Positions 55,773 to 64,000 of a stretch of 64,000 bases of DNA are shown in pieces; position 1 is the first letter of the stretch, and every line of letters starts with the position of its first letter. The position numbers and the translations under genes are program-made. The notes beneath the pieces were generated by a model. That model saw only the letters and a program-made list of their open reading frames with translations. It did no database searches and was not told the DNA's origin. This stretch comes from Ochrobactrum chromiisoli (GTDB taxonomy: Bacteria; Pseudomonadota; Alphaproteobacteria; Rhizobiales; Rhizobiaceae). The DNA lies in contig NZ_JAPHAV010000002.1 of NCBI RefSeq assembly GCF_026241335.1, positions 434,001-498,000 on the forward strand, given 5' to 3'.

Positions 55773-57566
55773 TCAAAATGTGTCTGCGTTGAGCGCCATC
55801 ATGCTATCCGCACCTGACTGGATACGTGCAAGATGCGCCACACTTTCCGGCATGATCCGCTCGAAATAGTAGCGTGCCGTGATAAGTTTGGCTTCAAGAT
55901 AGGCCTTATTGCCTTCACCCGCTGCCAGCTTTTCTTCTGCAACCTTCGCCATGCGCGCCCACATGTAACCAAGTGCCACCAGACCAAACAGGTGCATATA
56001 ATCATTGGATGCTGCACCGGCATTGTCAGGCTTTGCCATCGCGTTCTGCATCAGCCACATTGTGGCGGCTTGAAGATCATTGACGCCCTTCTTCAGATGC
56101 TTGGTGAAGAATGTGAGCTTTTCATTCTCACGATTGGCTTCGCAGAACTCGCCCACTTCCTTAAAGAAAGCAGTGATCGCACGGCCACCATTCAGCGCAA
56201 GCTTGCGGCCAACCAGATCGAGCGCCTGAATACCGTTGGCACCTTCATAAATCATGGCAATGCGCGCATCGCGCACATATTGGCTCATGCCATGCTCTTC
56301 GATATAGCCGTGACCACCGAACACCTGCTGCGCCATGACAGCGTGTTCAAACCCTTTGTCGGTCAGAACACCTTTCAGCACAGGCGTCAAAAGCCCCACG
56401 AGATCATCCGCAGCCTGGCGCTCTGCTTCATCGCCGGAACGATGGGCAATATCGGAGTTCAACGCCGTCCAGAGAATGAGTGCACGCCCGGATTCGTTAT
56501 AAGCGCGGATATTCATCAGGTTGCGACGAATATCCGGATGCACGATGATCGGATCAGCCTTCTTATCGGGTGCGCTCACACCTGAAAGCGCGCGGCCCTG
56601 AATGCGCTCACGTGCATAAATCGCGGCGTTCTGATAGGCAGTTTCGGCAATCGAAAGCCCCTGAAGCGCAACACCAAGCCGCGCTTCATTCATCATGGTG
56701 AACATGGCGCGCAGGCCCTTATGCGCTTCACCAATCAGGAAGCCTGTCGCATCGTCATAGTTCATAACACAGGTAGCATTGCCGTGGATGCCCATCTTCT
56801 CTTCGATGGAACCACACGACACACCATTGCGCGCACCCGGATTGCCATCAGCATCCAGAATGAACTTCGGCACGATGAACAGCGAAATGCCTTTCACACC
56901 TTCCGGTGCACCATCGATACGCGCCAACACCAGATGGATAATGTTCTCCGACATGTCATGTTCGCCAGCCGAGATGAAAATCTTCTGGCCGGAAATCTTG
57001 TATGAACCATCATCCTGCGGCGTTGCACTGGTGCGCAGAAGACCCAGATCCGTTCCGCAATGCGGCTCGGTCAGGTTCATGGTGCCGGTCCATGTGCCTT
57101 CCACCATCTTTGGCAGATAGGTGTCTTTTTGCGCATCCGTACCGTGGGTCAGGATCGCGGCAATCGCACCCTGCGTCAGGCCCGGATACATGGTCAGCGC
57201 CATATTGGCTGACGACATATATTCACCAACCGCTGTATGCAGCAGATAAGGAAGCCCCTGCCCGCCATATTGTTCAGGCACGGCCAAACCGAGCCAGCCA
57301 CCTTCGCGATACTGGTCATAAGCGGCTTTGAAGCCCTCAGGGGTTTTCACCGAGCCATCGGATGCGCGAACGCAGCCTTGCCTGTCGCCTGAATGATTGA
57401 CAGGAAACAGCGTGCCCTCGGCAAGCTTCGCGCCTTCGGACAGGATCGCCTCGACCACATCAGGCGATGCGTCAGCAAAGCCCGGCAAATTATTATAACG
57501 CTGATAATTCAAAACGTCATTGAGAACGAAATTTGTATCCTCAACTGGCGCGCGATAGCTCGGCAT
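55773..57566 (-). CDS. Acyl-CoA dehydrogenase, long form with C-terminal extension (FadE/DmdC-like)
   Basis: 597-residue flavoenzyme for the first step of beta-oxidation. The middle has [19 protein letters not shown] (substrate-flavin loop), the alpha-helical part carries [19 protein letters not shown], and [17 protein letters not shown] is followed by an ~130-residue C-terminal domain found in the DmdC/long-chain group. The ATG at 57566 has GGAGG. First gene of the fad operon; 229 bases upstream is a perfect inverted repeat. Confidence 0.92.
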
Positions 57567-57794
57567 CGAAATCCTCCAAATCAATAACCCGCTCAGTCCC
57601 GCATGAAGCGAAACAGGCTTCCAACTGCGTGTTTGGTACGTCTGTCATACGAAGTGCTCAAATGCGTGACAGAGTAATCTCCATGTCAAAAATGGGGCCA
57701 AAAACTCAAAAAACCAGCCATTTTGCCACTTCTGAAGCTCCCGCAACTCAAAAACCGATGACGAGAGTCCAACTTCTTGGCAAAACTAGCGCAC

Positions 57795-57818: not shown

Positions 57819-58137
57819 ATTAAACTAATTTGTGAGGGAGCATGGACCTGCCCTTATGTAAACGCCGCCGTGGTTTGTCCCCCTGCGCCTTGGTATGGGC
57901 ATTTCGTTGCATTTGATTTGTCCAGTTCGGGAAAATCATCGAATTAACGGGAAGCAGACCGTTTGCATTCAACAGTTCTACTTCGCGATCTACGGGCGTG
58001 TCGGTGAAGTTCGATATTGCGATTGCACTCGAAAACTCATGGCCAAATTATATCGGCTACCATAAACTCGGCATCGTTTTCATTAATAGACGGTTAGCCG
58101 CACCCTTGTTAGCCTATAAATAATGGGGGTGATTCTA
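57819..58137. other. Boundary zone between core chromosome and the accessory segment
   Basis: No ORF, tRNA, integrase or IS remnant seen. A 10-base sequence AACTAGCGCA just left of it (57784-57793) recurs at 60543-60552 beyond the ATPase gene, which might be an attachment duplication or chance. Confidence 0.4.
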
Positions 58138-60459
58138 ATGTCGTCTGCGCCAAAGGCATGTCTTCACATGCGAGCTAATTGGCTCGGCCCTGTCGGTAGT
58201 TTAGATGCTGACCTAAGTAAGCATGCTCAAAACCTAGTTTATGCCCGAAACGGTACGGGGAAATCATTTCTTACTCGTGCACTCAGGTACCTTGACCTTC
58301 ACGGGGATGGCGAAGATATCCAAGACGCGCTGATTAATCTCCTTGCCGAAGAATCCACGAACGGAGATGGTTTTTTCGAGCTTTCGCGGGGCGGCATCAA
58401 TATCTGCAAACTCACATTGAGCTCAACTACATCGCGGGTCACTCCCGACGTCAGCGACCGCATTTTCCATGTCTTCTCCGATGATTTCGTTCACGCCGAA
58501 CTTCGACAATCAAATTTTGTCGTCAACGGCAATATCGAGAGCAAAATAAGCCTAGACCAGTCGATAATCAGCACCAAGGATGCAGAGGAGACTCTGGCGC
58601 GGGCGGAATCTCATTTGAAAGAAATAAGAGAACGGCTAGAACAGCGAACGCTACAGCTCAAAGACCAGCAACTCGCTTCGAAGGCTAGCGTAAATAAGCG
58701 CCTCAGAGAATACGGCGACATAGACTTGGCCACCCTTTTAACGACGCACACAACTTTACCAGAGCAGGCTGCGCGATCTTTCGGGGATGTTCTAAACGAT
58801 CTTGATAGACTCAAAAGCGTCCCCGCCGAACCTGACTATCCGGATGATATAAGCAAACCGCTTTTCGACCCCGCGTTTTTAAATGCCACCTCCGAAAATA
58901 TCGCTAAGATCACCTCTCCCTCGACAGTTGCCGACGAAATCAAATCCAAGATCGCCGCGAACCCTGAGTTTATCGAAACTGGAGTCGACATCATTCAGAA
59001 GGATGCGCACGATTGCTGCCCTTTCTGTGAACAATCCATCGTGCACCCGCCCGCCAAAGACCTAATCGCCTCGTACATAGCTTTCTATGCAGATGCAGAA
59101 GGTGGGCATAAAGCAGCACTTCGCAAAGATTGGACGTGGATTAAAGGCCTTAGAGATGCCCTTTCTCAATGTGAAAGGTCTGTAGCCAGAAACCTAATCA
59201 AATACGACCGGTTAAGGAAGTTGGTACCGTCACAAGCGAGCGTTTCAGTACCCAATCTTTCAACCCAAATCGAGGCTATAGACAAATATCTGGGTGAATT
59301 GGCTGATACCATTGAGCAGAAGGGAAGAAACCCAAGCAAGGAAGTCGTCCTTCCAACAGGTGATCCGCTTTCCTTATTCCAGACACTGCATACAATGATC
59401 GATGAGATCAATAAAACGTTCTCCGCACTGGCGATGGCGATCAAAGCTTCTGACACTGAACGGCGAAATCTTCATCGGGAAGCTTGCTCTGTTTTCGTTA
59501 TCGACTTTGTGCGATCAAACTGGACTTCATTCGAAGCTATTCGAGCACGAGAGGGTGATGTGCGACTAGCCTCGGAAGACCTCGCTTCGCTTAAGAAATC
59601 TCAACTTTCGGATAGCGCTCGCGACCGGGTCGCTGCGACATTCGAAGCCCTCGTGACTAGCTTCTTCGGTCATAAATATACTTTCGACAAAGCATCATTC
59701 ACTCTTCGGCGAGAAAATCGCGAGATGGCGCGAGGGCCAAGCAGAACCCTGAGTGACGGCGAAAAGACTGTGATCGCCTTCTGCTATTTTATCGCGTGTG
59801 TTCATAAGAAAGTAAAAGCGACCTCCGACTACGCAAAAATTTTTCTGGTGTTCGATGATCCGATTACATCCATGTCTTATGACTATGTCTTTGCTATTGC
59901 ACAGACGCTTAAGCACTTGAGCATTTCTTCGATAGGCGAAGTCTCGATCAATCCAGCGGATATAAAAAAAGGCCACCTGAGACCTGATCTTTTGGTCTTT
60001 ACCCATAGTAGCTATTTCTACAATATCTGCGTCACGAACCGAGTCATCAAAGATGAAGCCGCCTTTTTCCTGTATAAGACCGGGGCTTCTCACCAGTTGT
60101 CAAAGCTGAAGAAGTACGTCGCCCCCTTCGAAGAGCATCTGCGGGAGATAGTCAACGTACATCACGGAGCAGAACCTTCTCATACGACAGGGCACGCTAT
60201 ACGTTGCGTTTTGGAAGCCGTAGGTCGCTTCTGCCACCCTGATAAATGTGACAGTCTGTCAAACTACATAAGTTATCTCGCGGGAGAAGAAGGCTTCGAG
60301 ATCAAGAGCGTCCTCATCAATAATCTGTCTCATGGTACTTATTACGATGAGACTCCTAGTCCGGACGAACTGCGTGATGCGTGTGATGAAGCGGTCCGAA
60401 TCGTGGAAAAATATGCCAAAGGTCAGCTTGAGGTGGCCAGAGCCATGAGTGGAGCGTGA
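58138..60459 (+). CDS. ABC-type ATPase with zinc-hook-like motif, candidate RloC/PrrC-family anticodon nuclease
   Basis: 773 residues, cytoplasmic. Walker A N38-G-T-G-K-S43; a long helical/coiled-coil middle carrying C294-P-F-C297 (preceded by a further Cys293); signature S539-D-G-E-K543; Walker B ending D573-D574-P. The C-terminal region has R689-x3-E693 (HAIRCVLEAVGRF) and H732 (NNLSHG). PrrC and RloC nucleases share exactly an R-x3-E...H catalytic triad after an ABC ATPase, and RloC adds a Rad50-like zinc hook. AAA_13 proteins in general are the alternative. I use the ATG at 58138 behind GGGGGTGA; another in-frame ATG is at 58123. No hsd genes lie next to it within the window. Confidence 0.78.
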   Translation: MSSAPKACLHMRANWLGPVGSLDADLSKHAQNLVYARNGTGKSFLTRALRYLDLHGDGEDIQDALINLLAEESTNGDGFFELSRGGINICKLTLSSTTSRVTPDVSDRIFHVFSDDFVHAELRQSNFVVNGNIESKISLDQSIISTKDAEETLARAESHLKEIRERLEQRTLQLKDQQLASKASVNKRLREYGDIDLATLLTTHTTLPEQAARSFGDVLNDLDRLKSVPAEPDYPDDISKPLFDPAFLNATSENIAKITSPSTVADEIKSKIAANPEFIETGVDIIQKDAHDCCPFCEQSIVHPPAKDLIASYIAFYADAEGGHKAALRKDWTWIKGLRDALSQCERSVARNLIKYDRLRKLVPSQASVSVPNLSTQIEAIDKYLGELADTIEQKGRNPSKEVVLPTGDPLSLFQTLHTMIDEINKTFSALAMAIKASDTERRNLHREACSVFVIDFVRSNWTSFEAIRAREGDVRLASEDLASLKKSQLSDSARDRVAATFEALVTSFFGHKYTFDKASFTLRRENREMARGPSRTLSDGEKTVIAFCYFIACVHKKVKATSDYAKIFLVFDDPITSMSYDYVFAIAQTLKHLSISSIGEVSINPADIKKGHLRPDLLVFTHSSYFYNICVTNRVIKDEAAFFLYKTGASHQLSKLKKYVAPFEEHLREIVNVHHGAEPSHTTGHAIRCVLEAVGRFCHPDKCDSLSNYISYLAGEEGFEIKSVLINNLSHGTYYDETPSPDELRDACDEAVRIVEKYAKGQLEVARAMSGA

Positions 60460-60656: not shown

Positions 60657-61532
60657 TCATTTTCCAATCTTGCGACCAACATGCGGCGCAAGCGATGCAA
60701 CCAAAAGCATTGAGCGACCAACAATCTGCGAACTCTGTGCAGCGACGGCTTCGTTCAACAGTCGGAGATTTCTATCGTTGATGTCGACAATGATCTCACG
60801 TTCATCCAACGGTCCGACCCCAATCATGACATCTGGCGCGACTGCAAGCCATAATTCCACACGCGGGTTACAGAGGTCGTTTGTTTCAGGCGGCGTCAGT
60901 TTTATCACCGGACGACTGCCCAAGATGAACGATTTCTTCGGGTTGGGTACGCGACAGACCGCGAGCCCTCGGCCTGCTATAGTCTCTAAAACATTCCTGC
61001 TGATTGATTTAAGTGATGAAACTCTAAGATTGCGATATAATTTTTCAAGATTTGATGGATCTAGCGTATCGCTGCGCTCTTTATTGGTTACCGGTCGGAC
61101 TTTCCTGTGGAACGTATCGATATGGGCTTCGACCGTCCCTTTATGCTGCTCCTCGGTGAGAAGCGATGCATAAAAATCAGGTACGCGTCGAAATTGCTGG
61201 TAGAGAAACAGATCCCAGTTCGCTCGTTCAGATACGGTTAGCTGTGGCGTCCTCCACATCCTTGCCGCAGCTAATATTTTATCGATAATTGGCGCGGTGG
61301 CGGATTCCAATCGGCTAAATTGAGTTTCCAACTCCGCATCCTTGCTGCCGTCCCCGTTTAAATGACTGTATAGGTGCCCTCGCAAAAACAGATTATCGGG
61401 TTTCCCATACCATACTTTTTGTTCCGTACGTCGATGGTCATATGCCCATAACCCGCCGTCGTCAGTAAGGAAGTGCTTTTGAAGCATCTTTGGTACAAAG
61501 TGATGTCGTTTCGGGGCCTGTTGCATGGACAT
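60657..61532 (-). CDS. DUF4238 family protein
   Basis: 291 residues, cytoplasmic. The N-terminal R-H-H-F-V-P-x-M-L-x-x-H-F is the DUF4238 fingerprint; QFRRVPDFYASLLTEEQ and LGSRPVIKLTPP fit further family blocks. DUF4238 proteins have no established function and occur scattered in accessory loci. It is convergent with the RloC-like gene (197-base gap) and divergent from the phosphatase. The 197-base gap contains a 7-bp palindrome ATGTGCG-T-CGCACAT (60594-60608). Confidence 0.8.
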   Translation of the reverse strand: MSMQQAPKRHHFVPKMLQKHFLTDDGGLWAYDHRRTEQKVWYGKPDNLFLRGHLYSHLNGDGSKDAELETQFSRLESATAPIIDKILAAARMWRTPQLTVSERANWDLFLYQQFRRVPDFYASLLTEEQHKGTVEAHIDTFHRKVRPVTNKERSDTLDPSNLEKLYRNLRVSSLKSISRNVLETIAGRGLAVCRVPNPKKSFILGSRPVIKLTPPETNDLCNPRVELWLAVAPDVMIGVGPLDEREIIVDINDRNLRLLNEAVAAQSSQIVGRSMLLVASLAPHVGRKIGK

Positions 61533-61884
61533 TTGTTATAATTGCCATCTCACTGAGCGCGTTCTTGGTCATTTTCCAGCTATGTCTTTTGTTTTTCCGG
61601 CAAGTCCCTCTCTGGTGCGATAAATTTCACCCATGATGCGAGCGAGCCTAATGCTCACAGAAAAATTCGCACCCTGTTTCACGTCTTTCTCCGCAATTCC
61701 TCAAAACAGTTATAGATCAACTACTTCGGATATCCCGGTGGTCAAGCTATCCCCCATTGAGCTCATACCGTCAAGAATCGCTGGCAACTCAGGAGCGATA
61801 CGCATGCTTCAATTGCGTCGAAGCCTTGACGTCTTGGTCTATCTCTCTCAATGCTCTCAATTGCGATTACTGAGTAGGCACAGG

Positions 61885-62604
61885 ATGCCTAGCATATTGG
61901 GGGCCATCTTGAAACTTACGTACGCCATCGGCGATGTACACGGTTGCGCCGATCTACTGCAGAAAATGCTATCAACGATCGAGGCAGATGCTGACGGAGA
62001 GCCGTATCGGGTCATCTTCCTGGGCGATATAATTGATCGCGGCTCCAATAGTCGCGCCGCCATGGAATTGGTCTGCCATACACTTGACACTCTCCCCGGC
62101 AGTTTTTTGATCCAGGGAAACCATGAAGAATTACTGCTCAGAGTTTTGGCGTGCGATGAAAACAGTGACCGCGTGCTGGAACATTGGAAGAAGCAGGGCG
62201 GCGACACTACATTTTGCTCGTACTCGTTCCTCGGTTATGAGAATTCCAGTTTAATCTTGGATGAATTCGAAGAGCTCTATCCACGCCATTTAAGAGCCCT
62301 AAAAGAATCCGTCAGCTATGTGATCGAAGGTCAATACCTTTTCGTTCACGCAGGCATTCGACCTGGGGTCACGATAGCGGAGCAGAAAGAAAAAGATCTT
62401 CGCTGGATCAGAGAAGGGTTTCTCGATTTTGAAGGCGACCACGGATACACAGTGGTTCACGGTCACACCATAACCGACAATTTCCAACCTGAGCGCCATC
62501 CCAACCGTATCAACCTCGACAGCGGCGCATACGTGTCTGGAAGGCTAAGTGCATTGAAAGTGATAAATGGCGAACGTGAAACGATGTTAACCGTTTCTCC
62601 GTAG
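61885..62604 (+). CDS. PPP-type metallophosphoesterase (Ser/Thr phosphatase, PrpA/lambda-like)
   Basis: 239 residues from the chosen ATG. All metal-binding blocks of the PPP phosphatases are present: GDVHG, GDIIDRG, GNHEELLLR, H in FVHAGIRPG and VHGHT. The open frame continues upstream to 61633, but the extra 84 residues show no conserved motif and the fold starts at LKLTYAIGDVHG; a TTG start at about 61909 is another option. Phage lambda and enterobacterial PrpA/B are the closest architecture. Target protein unknown. Confidence 0.85.
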   Translation: MPSILGAILKLTYAIGDVHGCADLLQKMLSTIEADADGEPYRVIFLGDIIDRGSNSRAAMELVCHTLDTLPGSFLIQGNHEELLLRVLACDENSDRVLEHWKKQGGDTTFCSYSFLGYENSSLILDEFEELYPRHLRALKESVSYVIEGQYLFVHAGIRPGVTIAEQKEKDLRWIREGFLDFEGDHGYTVVHGHTITDNFQPERHPNRINLDSGAYVSGRLSALKVINGERETMLTVSP

Positions 62605-63189: not shown

Positions 63190-63422
63190 AGTGTCCTCCC
63201 TGAGTTAAACTCAGGCAATGATCGCTTGCTTTGTTGCAAGGGACACGGTTTTTGGGCGGATGGCAAAATAGGGAAGTTTATTCAATTACGCGTCCACTGA
63301 CACGTTCGGTCAACTTCCAGCCCCTTGATCACAGGAACAGATATCTAGAACCATTACGCCTTGAATTTTTGCAAGAATGAATTCAGAAACGCAAGAAGCT
63401 GGCATTTGTGGGGGTAGATTCT

Positions 63423-64000
63423 ATGGCAGATAAAATAATTCAAGTCGCATTACATGGTTTGCGGCGGAATGATTTAGGCAACTTCGAAATTAAAATCGGC
63501 AAGAAAAAGCTAAAGCTGTCCAAAACAGTAGTTCGCGTTGTGACCGAGATCCACGGGCTCTATGCGAGTAAATCAGCAAAAGCTCATGGGAAGTTTTCTG
63601 AGCCGATAGAGAACTATCCAGCACAAACGTTCATAAAAAATTTGAAAGACAATAACTATAATAACTTCTCTGAAATTACTAAGAAGCTAATGGACACATT
63701 GGCTTATCAAGCAAAGCTAAAGTCGGGTTCCACGGGCGGACACGTGCTCTTTGCTCATATTGAGAAAGATAAACAGGTCTACCTGTTGGTCGCAATTATC
63801 ACTGAGAAACTAGGTGCGGCACTTACAAATGATTTGGACATTGCCGATATCAAGCATCTGGATTTAAGCGGTTTCCGATTTGCGGGTCGTGTGAACATTA
63901 CCGCCTGGCTTGCAGGAGCCGACCGTTACATCGGTTTCTTGAAAGGAAAAGGCAACGTAGCGGAATATTTCAAGGAATTTCTGGGATGTGATACTGCCGT
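63423..64000 (+). CDS. NdpA/YejK-like nucleoid-associated protein, cut by the right edge
   Basis: 192 codons visible, frame still open at base 64000. Family blocks: TGGHVLFAHIEKDKQVYLL, IKHLDLSGFRFAGRVNITAW and YFKEFLGCD match the 37-kDa nucleoid-associated (NdpA/YejK) pattern. GGGGGT lies ahead of the ATG. The coding sequence is visibly more AT-rich than the core genes to the left. E. coli YejK is ~335 residues, so about 40 percent is missing. Function poorly known. Lies in the same segment as the RloC-like ATPase. Confidence 0.82.
   Translation, partial: MADKIIQVALHGLRRNDLGNFEIKIGKKKLKLSKTVVRVVTEIHGLYASKSAKAHGKFSEPIENYPAQTFIKNLKDNNYNNFSEITKKLMDTLAYQAKLKSGSTGGHVLFAHIEKDKQVYLLVAIITEKLGAALTNDLDIADIKHLDLSGFRFAGRVNITAWLAGADRYIGFLKGKGNVAEYFKEFLGCDTA

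Follow-up and report, generated by a model that had tools for sequence, protein, structure and literature searches.

We have analysed a 64,000-nucleotide stretch of the Ochrobactrum chromiisoli genome (G000:C22:434001-498000, G000 being the genome; hereafter the window, past whose end the contig runs for a further 933 bases) and conclude that one of its genes most probably encodes a self-contained RloC-type anticodon nuclease, restrained by its ATPase and hook, freed by DNA breaks and employed in abortive phage defence. We put the probability of this reading at roughly 0.87. The gene occupies positions 58138–60459 of the forward strand and specifies 773 amino acids (aa). An ATP-binding cassette (ABC) head of the Rad50 kind is interrupted by coiled-coil arms that flank a CPFC hook; the triad R689-x3-E693-x38-H732, in which 38 residues separate the glutamic acid from the histidine, lies in a C-terminal domain. 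A preliminary description of this DNA, made from the letters alone, had proposed such an arrangement; the split head and CPFC (residues 294–297) are present, R689, E693 and H732 follow Walker B at the residues it gave, and the architecture of hook plus triad is confirmed.

An alternative longer start is present in frame at 58123. The start at 58138 is favoured because GGGGGTG lies directly 5' of it and because four relatives (L009, L010, L011 and L014; labels of this type are our own) have no in-frame start before the corresponding methionine. The features of the gene, all on the forward strand, are as follows.

58138..60459, +, RloC-type protein, whole gene, 773 aa (open reading frame, Pfam and PADLOC profiles, alignment)
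58243..58266, +, Walker A ARNGTGKS, residues 36–43 (sequence, alignment)
58576..59001, +, first coiled-coil arm, residues 147–288 (model mostly helical; predicted helices 147–182 to 276–288)
59017..59028, +, zinc-hook motif CPFC, residues 294–297, with C294 and C297 (CxxC conserved in all 26 rows)
59053..59667, +, second coiled-coil arm, residues 306–510 (predicted helices)
59749..59763, +, ABC signature LSDGE, residues 538–542 (alignment)
59842..59862, +, Walker B FLVFDDP, residues 569–575 (alignment)
60004..60006, +, switch or linchpin histidine H623 in THSS (invariant in the 15-row alignment A1)
60124..60414, +, predicted HEPN-like ribonuclease (RNase) domain, residues 663–759 (isolated-domain model; best structural matches HEPN proteins)
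60202..60204, +, triad arginine R689 (alignment, PrrC profile comparison)
60214..60216, +, triad glutamic acid E693 (alignment, PrrC profile comparison)
60331..60333, +, triad histidine H732, with S731 in front (alignment, PrrC profile comparison)

The spacing of the triad is by itself weak evidence: an R-x3-E-x36-52-H pattern arises in 29% of 5000 shuffles of residues 600–773, and one with serine before the histidine in 3.6%. The triad is judged to be real because it is conserved, together with the CxxC, and because the PrrC triad aligns with it in register. Triad and hook are invariant in A1, a MAFFT alignment of the window protein with 14 loci from one genome-contig scan (15 rows, two of them partial). 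After the addition of plasmid and genome copies, Arg, Glu and His are kept in all 26 rows (the window protein and 25 relatives, made up of 21 rows and five later members, with the window counted and the identical L003 excluded), and so is the CxxC, which reads CPFC in 25 rows and CPYC in one. The distant member L104 (25% identity) is among these rows, yet stands among the controls in the comparison of gene neighbours described below. Many marine members have cysteine instead of serine before the histidine.

For the comparison with PrrC, 398 genomes of the phylum were searched with the PADLOC PrrC model; 20 gave matches, and 15 of these contained full-length PrrC. Alignment of the A1 profile to these 15 with hhalign placed R689, E693 and H732 opposite the Arg, Glu and His of PrrC (probability 97.3%, E = 1.6e-11, for a single comparison), which upholds the earlier proposal of a PrrC-like triad; a previous run with nine PrrC frames had given the identical triad register. 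The C-terminal domain alone aligned to the 15 PrrC proteins in the same register with an E value of 3.7e-4, but with a probability of only 36%.

ABC heads filled the result list of a structural search with the full-length protein and for this reason the C-terminal domain was folded and searched alone. The isolated-domain model has a predicted template-modelling score (pTM) of 0.81, and its best structural matches are HEPN proteins and HEPN RNases at modest Z. The head and coiled-coil match Rad50/SMC structures. The earlier suggestion that the triad clusters in three dimensions gains partial support, at the level of the fold, from this model and its HEPN matches. When the Protein Data Bank was searched by sequence, the protein query returned two matches at chance level only (E = 0.23 and 0.88) and the profile query none.

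The family profiles agree with this picture. Pfam AAA_13 (PF13166) matches at 131 bits (cut-off 36) over residues 31–743, a span that includes the triad, and the contrary outcome, an AAA_13 match lacking the triad, did not arise. PADLOC places the protein with its candidate system PDC-S06 (model PDLC04898, 400.7 bits, residues 7–767), which outscores the PADLOC PrrC model (56 bits, residues 516–741) by 345 bits. No NCBIfam family fits the 773-aa protein, and in PHROGs phrog_2801 and phrog_77 match the ATPase or coiled-coil parts only.

Published papers are cited here by PMC number and were drawn on in part. RloC proteins are described as having 658–897 aa, ABC motifs, a CX2C hook insert and a C-terminal Arg-X3-Glu-X36-52-His, often with Ser before the His (PMC2610378). 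The window protein has 773 aa; Walker A, signature, Walker B and switch histidine are all found; CPFC lies between long predicted helices that split the ATPase; and R689 and E693 are followed after 38 residues by S731-H732. It thus agrees with the published description in every sequence feature compared, as the preliminary description had supposed in naming an RloC type with a Rad50-like hook, and its assignment as RloC-type is supported by these features. To judge from sequence, the PADLOC PDC-S06 (PDLC04898) clade is one of putative RloC-type anticodon nucleases.

How such a protein might work we infer from the family members that have been studied. In Geobacillus kaustophilus RloC, R692, E696 and H737 are each required for activity and a hook mutant is more active (PMC2610378). 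The purified enzyme requires its own ATPase and linear DNA; RloC is activated by a DNA-break inducer, and the targets of Acinetobacter baylyi RloC are tRNA-Glu/Gln (PMC3874168). By analogy, the Rad50-like ABC head with its zinc-hook coiled-coil (C294/C297) would keep the C-terminal HEPN-type RNase domain (R689, E693, H732) inactive. Head and hook would sense DNA ends such as those left by phage attack or by other double-strand breaks. When the head met them, ATP hydrolysis would free the RNase domain, which would then cleave the anticodon loop of one tRNA or a small number of tRNAs (the G. kaustophilus enzyme also removes the wobble base). Translation would stop and the infection be aborted.

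Three other explanations were considered. HEPN domains cut several kinds of RNA (PMC3710099) and targets are given for two RloCs only (PMC2610378, PMC3874168), which leaves a little room for an HEPN RNase of RloC architecture with a non-anticodon target such as mRNA or some other RNA. The R-x3-E and N-x-x-SHG context that the protein has in common with PrrC argues against this, and we consider it improbable. The match of the head and coiled-coil to Rad50/SMC could also suit an SbcC/Rad50-type DNA-repair ATPase devoid of RNase activity, but such an enzyme would not account for an extra domain past the ATPase with a kept triad and an HEPN-like fold. Moreover, no SbcD/Mre11 gene adjoins the gene in L003 or L017, copies of the window locus, and none was found in G000 with our SbcD model, A4. 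A repair ATPase is therefore very unlikely.

The least credible explanation is that the protein is a true PrrC, kept silent by a type I restriction enzyme whose genes lie at another site. In its favour are the PADLOC PrrC match at 56 bits and an HsdR gene scoring over the cut-off on another contig (C7), which is the sole restriction–modification (R-M) candidate in the genome and was rejected as a partner. However, PrrC has 341–416 aa (PMC2610378), against 773 aa with a hook here; PDC-S06 is far ahead by profile; and PrrC is linked to type I R-M (PMC3874168), while no R-M family occurs among the neighbours scanned (four downstream and three upstream), in line with the earlier remark that, unlike classical prrC, the gene has no adjacent type I restriction genes. 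RloC genes usually lie apart from type I R-M: linkage to type I or III R-M is given for 8 of 73 (PMC2610378). The self-contained RloC-type anticodon nuclease is the reading that we retain.

The gene is patchily spread, solitary in the window and not beside restriction genes. It is found in 4 of 35 genus genomes, its own included, and, counting the centre genome each time, in 2 of 297 genomes of the order (E 1e-60), 5 of 385 of the class (E 1e-10) and 8 of 394 genomes from the family to which a Roseobacter relative belongs. The closest copies are those of 'Rhizobiales AFS001111' (100%), Brucella pecoris (96%) and B. thiophenivorans (85%). Relatives covering at least 80% of the query are present on five plasmid records, the plasmids being typed as conjugative or mobilizable; one relative, L101 (plasmid pTB1, NC_008386.1), is annotated as two overlapping frames and is a single frame in L096 of the same species. 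Phage records gave just two partial matches at 23% identity, and a scan of viral contigs with A1 gave 64 pattern matches and no relatives.

We were struck by the company that some relatives keep. In the first three plasmid relatives examined, a pair of genes for a metallophosphoesterase and a large ABC ATPase adjoins the RloC gene; the fourth (H3) has no pair nearby, but its 93-kb plasmid carries an SbcD-like gene at another site. The gap between pair and RloC is about 90 to 122 bases in H4, G075, G1379, H5 and G240, and a small HNH gene lies between them in H1 and L009. The pair precedes RloC on the same strand in H4, G075 and G1379, comes after it on the same strand in H5 and faces it in H1, L009 and G240. 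In six loci that were scanned with Pfam, those of Roseobacter denitrificans, G075, Sphingopyxis, G240, G1379 and L009, Metallophos and AAA/SMC-type partners are recognized. Several partner types occur: SbcCD of 381 + 1019 aa, pairs of 378–382 + 902–903 aa and of 369 + 875 aa, and one of 424 + 1173 aa of the YhaON kind, which we take the G240 pair to be from its PF13514 match. Between H4 and G075 the pairs are 88% identical. The CxxC hook that RloC possesses is missing from five of seven Rad50-like partners (L096, L097, L098, L102, L103, L157 and L009).

By an SbcD-profile search, 6 of 20 distinct clade loci have the pair (L009, L096, L097, L098, L102 and L103; L101, L105, L017 and further copies of the window locus were omitted as repeats) and none of 18 controls does. 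The controls comprised 16 further AAA_13 genes from the class, L104 as a distant member and a second RloC-like gene of G000. One of five new members in a later independent set also has the pair, which brings the totals to 7 of 25 for the clade against 0 of 18 for the control AAA_13 loci (Fisher p = 0.015, ignoring relatedness and unequal flanks). SbcD-like genes are rare with this model, at none or one per genome in sets of 8 and 11 genomes (two genomes being in both) and one on each of four plasmids. The only copy found in G075, G240 and the genome of L009 is the one adjoining RloC. In eight other carriers the copy is outside the DNA examined around RloC, and with the model none was found in G000, G010, G031, G394 or the genomes of L011 and L014.

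SbcD identities between partner types are 20–23%, or 37–40% between the 378–382-aa and 369-aa types. The RloC of G1379 is 50% identical to that of G240 and 37% to those of Maritalea and G075, while its SbcD is 66–67% identical to those of Maritalea and G075 and 23% to that of G240, as if RloC lineages had swapped Mre11-Rad50-like partners. We tentatively suggest, at somewhat less than even odds, that Mre11-Rad50-like machines employ RloC as a modular effector in this clade: the pair would find or trim phage or plasmid DNA ends and RloC, with its own Rad50-like shape, would read their state and kill translation, with partners of several dissimilar types and arrangements being exchanged and solitary members, the window's among them, using host factors in trans or acting alone. 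The linked pairs may deliver or prepare DNA ends for RloC, in an arrangement parallel to that of PrrC with its restriction enzyme.

Several points weigh against such a partnership. The pair is missing in 18 of the 25 loci, including all Brucella-group, Rhizobium and Kaistia members, and the rate in the later set is low. The Fisher value carries the reservations given above; flanks are short on one or both sides in L007, L010, L011, L015, L016 and L154, some controls are cut or split (L127, L133) and L140 has a broken G128 gene. Linked copies were used to build the SbcD model, which favours them for that reason, and PADLOC labels for the partner ATPases are weak, mixed ABC matches. Clustering in defence islands or on plasmids could give rise to the link; in G240 an HsdR gene (PF04313, L103:13285-16425) lies about 3.6 kb from RloC and its pair. 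On a tree of 19 rows with three long branches, from which L015, L016 and the five later members were left out, the pair label shows no more clustering than it does when shuffled (a value as low in 80 of 500 shuffles), with at least three changes forced, a pattern that fits repeated gain but also scatter. The association hints at how RloC-type enzymes may sense damage. No report of RloC beside an Mre11-Rad50-like pair was found in the portions of the literature covered (e.g. PMC2610378, PMC3874168, PMC3710099, PMC7824862 and PMC13379101). Whether a partner supplies or prepares DNA ends for RloC becomes testable through this pairing; the cited RloC papers, as far as covered, name none.

In the window, L003, L004 and L005 the RloC gene follows the same divergent acyl-CoA dehydrogenase gene (window 55773-57584), for which all 35 genus genomes searched give matches. 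A clean empty site was sought in 14 genus genomes (11 without and three with the gene) and no boundary could be drawn. No first gene beyond the dehydrogenase is common to most genus genomes compared, and 6 of the 11 gene-less genomes share a block of different genes at about 3 to 10 kb; the stretch is a variable spot. An alignment of upstream DNA from six loci showed only the Brucella-group copies to be alike far upstream, and we claim no regulatory element. SOS-box-like sites were dismissed: the window has 14 where 9.1 would be expected, a count attained in 7 of 100 shuffles, there is none between the upstream gene and the RloC gene, and the one site near the latter, 58630-58642, is inside it.

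Downstream, a DUF4238 protein (PF14022, 90 bits) is encoded at 60657-61532 on the reverse strand, between the RloC gene and a calcineurin-like phosphatase gene at 61633-62604 (forward strand). The phosphatase weakly resembles, at scores far below the cut-offs, ApaH/PrpE and the phosphatase portion of Pnkp, a bacterial RNA-repair enzyme. An NA37 nucleoid-associated protein (PF04245) and then a 392-aa phrog_5023 protein follow (window 63408-63998, L003:13271-15467), possibly a further defence pair; the part of NA37 in the window scores 53.6 bits, under the cut-off of 330, with NCBIfam NF053868, a nucleoid-associated anti-phage protein. The DUF4238 protein, the metallophosphatase, a 177-aa protein and NA37 were rejected as partners, as, of the loci compared, they recur beside the gene only in the near-identical L003. 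Elsewhere in G000, the second RloC-like AAA_13 gene (L018:7436-9766, contig C2) adjoins plasmid partition and replication genes (ParA-like, RepB, RP-C). Its 776-aa product scores 213 bits with PDC-S06 model PDLC04895 and has a CPFC hook and R688-x3-E692; the histidine pair 746/747 is 53–54 residues on, just beyond the published spacing range and with no Ser in front, and His 702 is closer. In Kaistia soli an AbiU2-type HEPN protein (PF18734) is encoded upstream of the RloC relative (L008:6720-7469).

Among known systems, Rad50/SbcC shares the ABC head with hook coiled-coil and differs from the window protein in the latter's C-terminal HEPN-like domain and in the SbcD partner, which was not found beside the window gene. 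PrrC likewise has an ABC head and a C-terminal anticodon-nuclease triad, alignable over about 200 residues, but is about half as long, without the hook insert and tied to type I R-M (PMC3874168). The RloCs of G. kaustophilus and A. baylyi, as far as described (PMC2610378, PMC3874168), are alike in size, ABC motifs, CX2C coiled-coil hook, R-x3-E-x36-52-H with Ser before His and absence of adjacent R-M, and the published numbering (R692/E696/H737, C291) is close to that of the window protein (R689/E693/H732, C294); unlike these accounts, several relatives in the clade of the window protein adjoin Mre11-Rad50-like pairs. The window gene is an ordinary new example of the already known RloC kind. 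By profile the PADLOC system PDC-S06 (PDLC04898) comprises the same proteins; it is listed as a candidate without a mechanism, appearing in the part of PMC11514479 covered as a table entry only, and this unnamed candidate would now gain an identity as an RloC-type anticodon nuclease.
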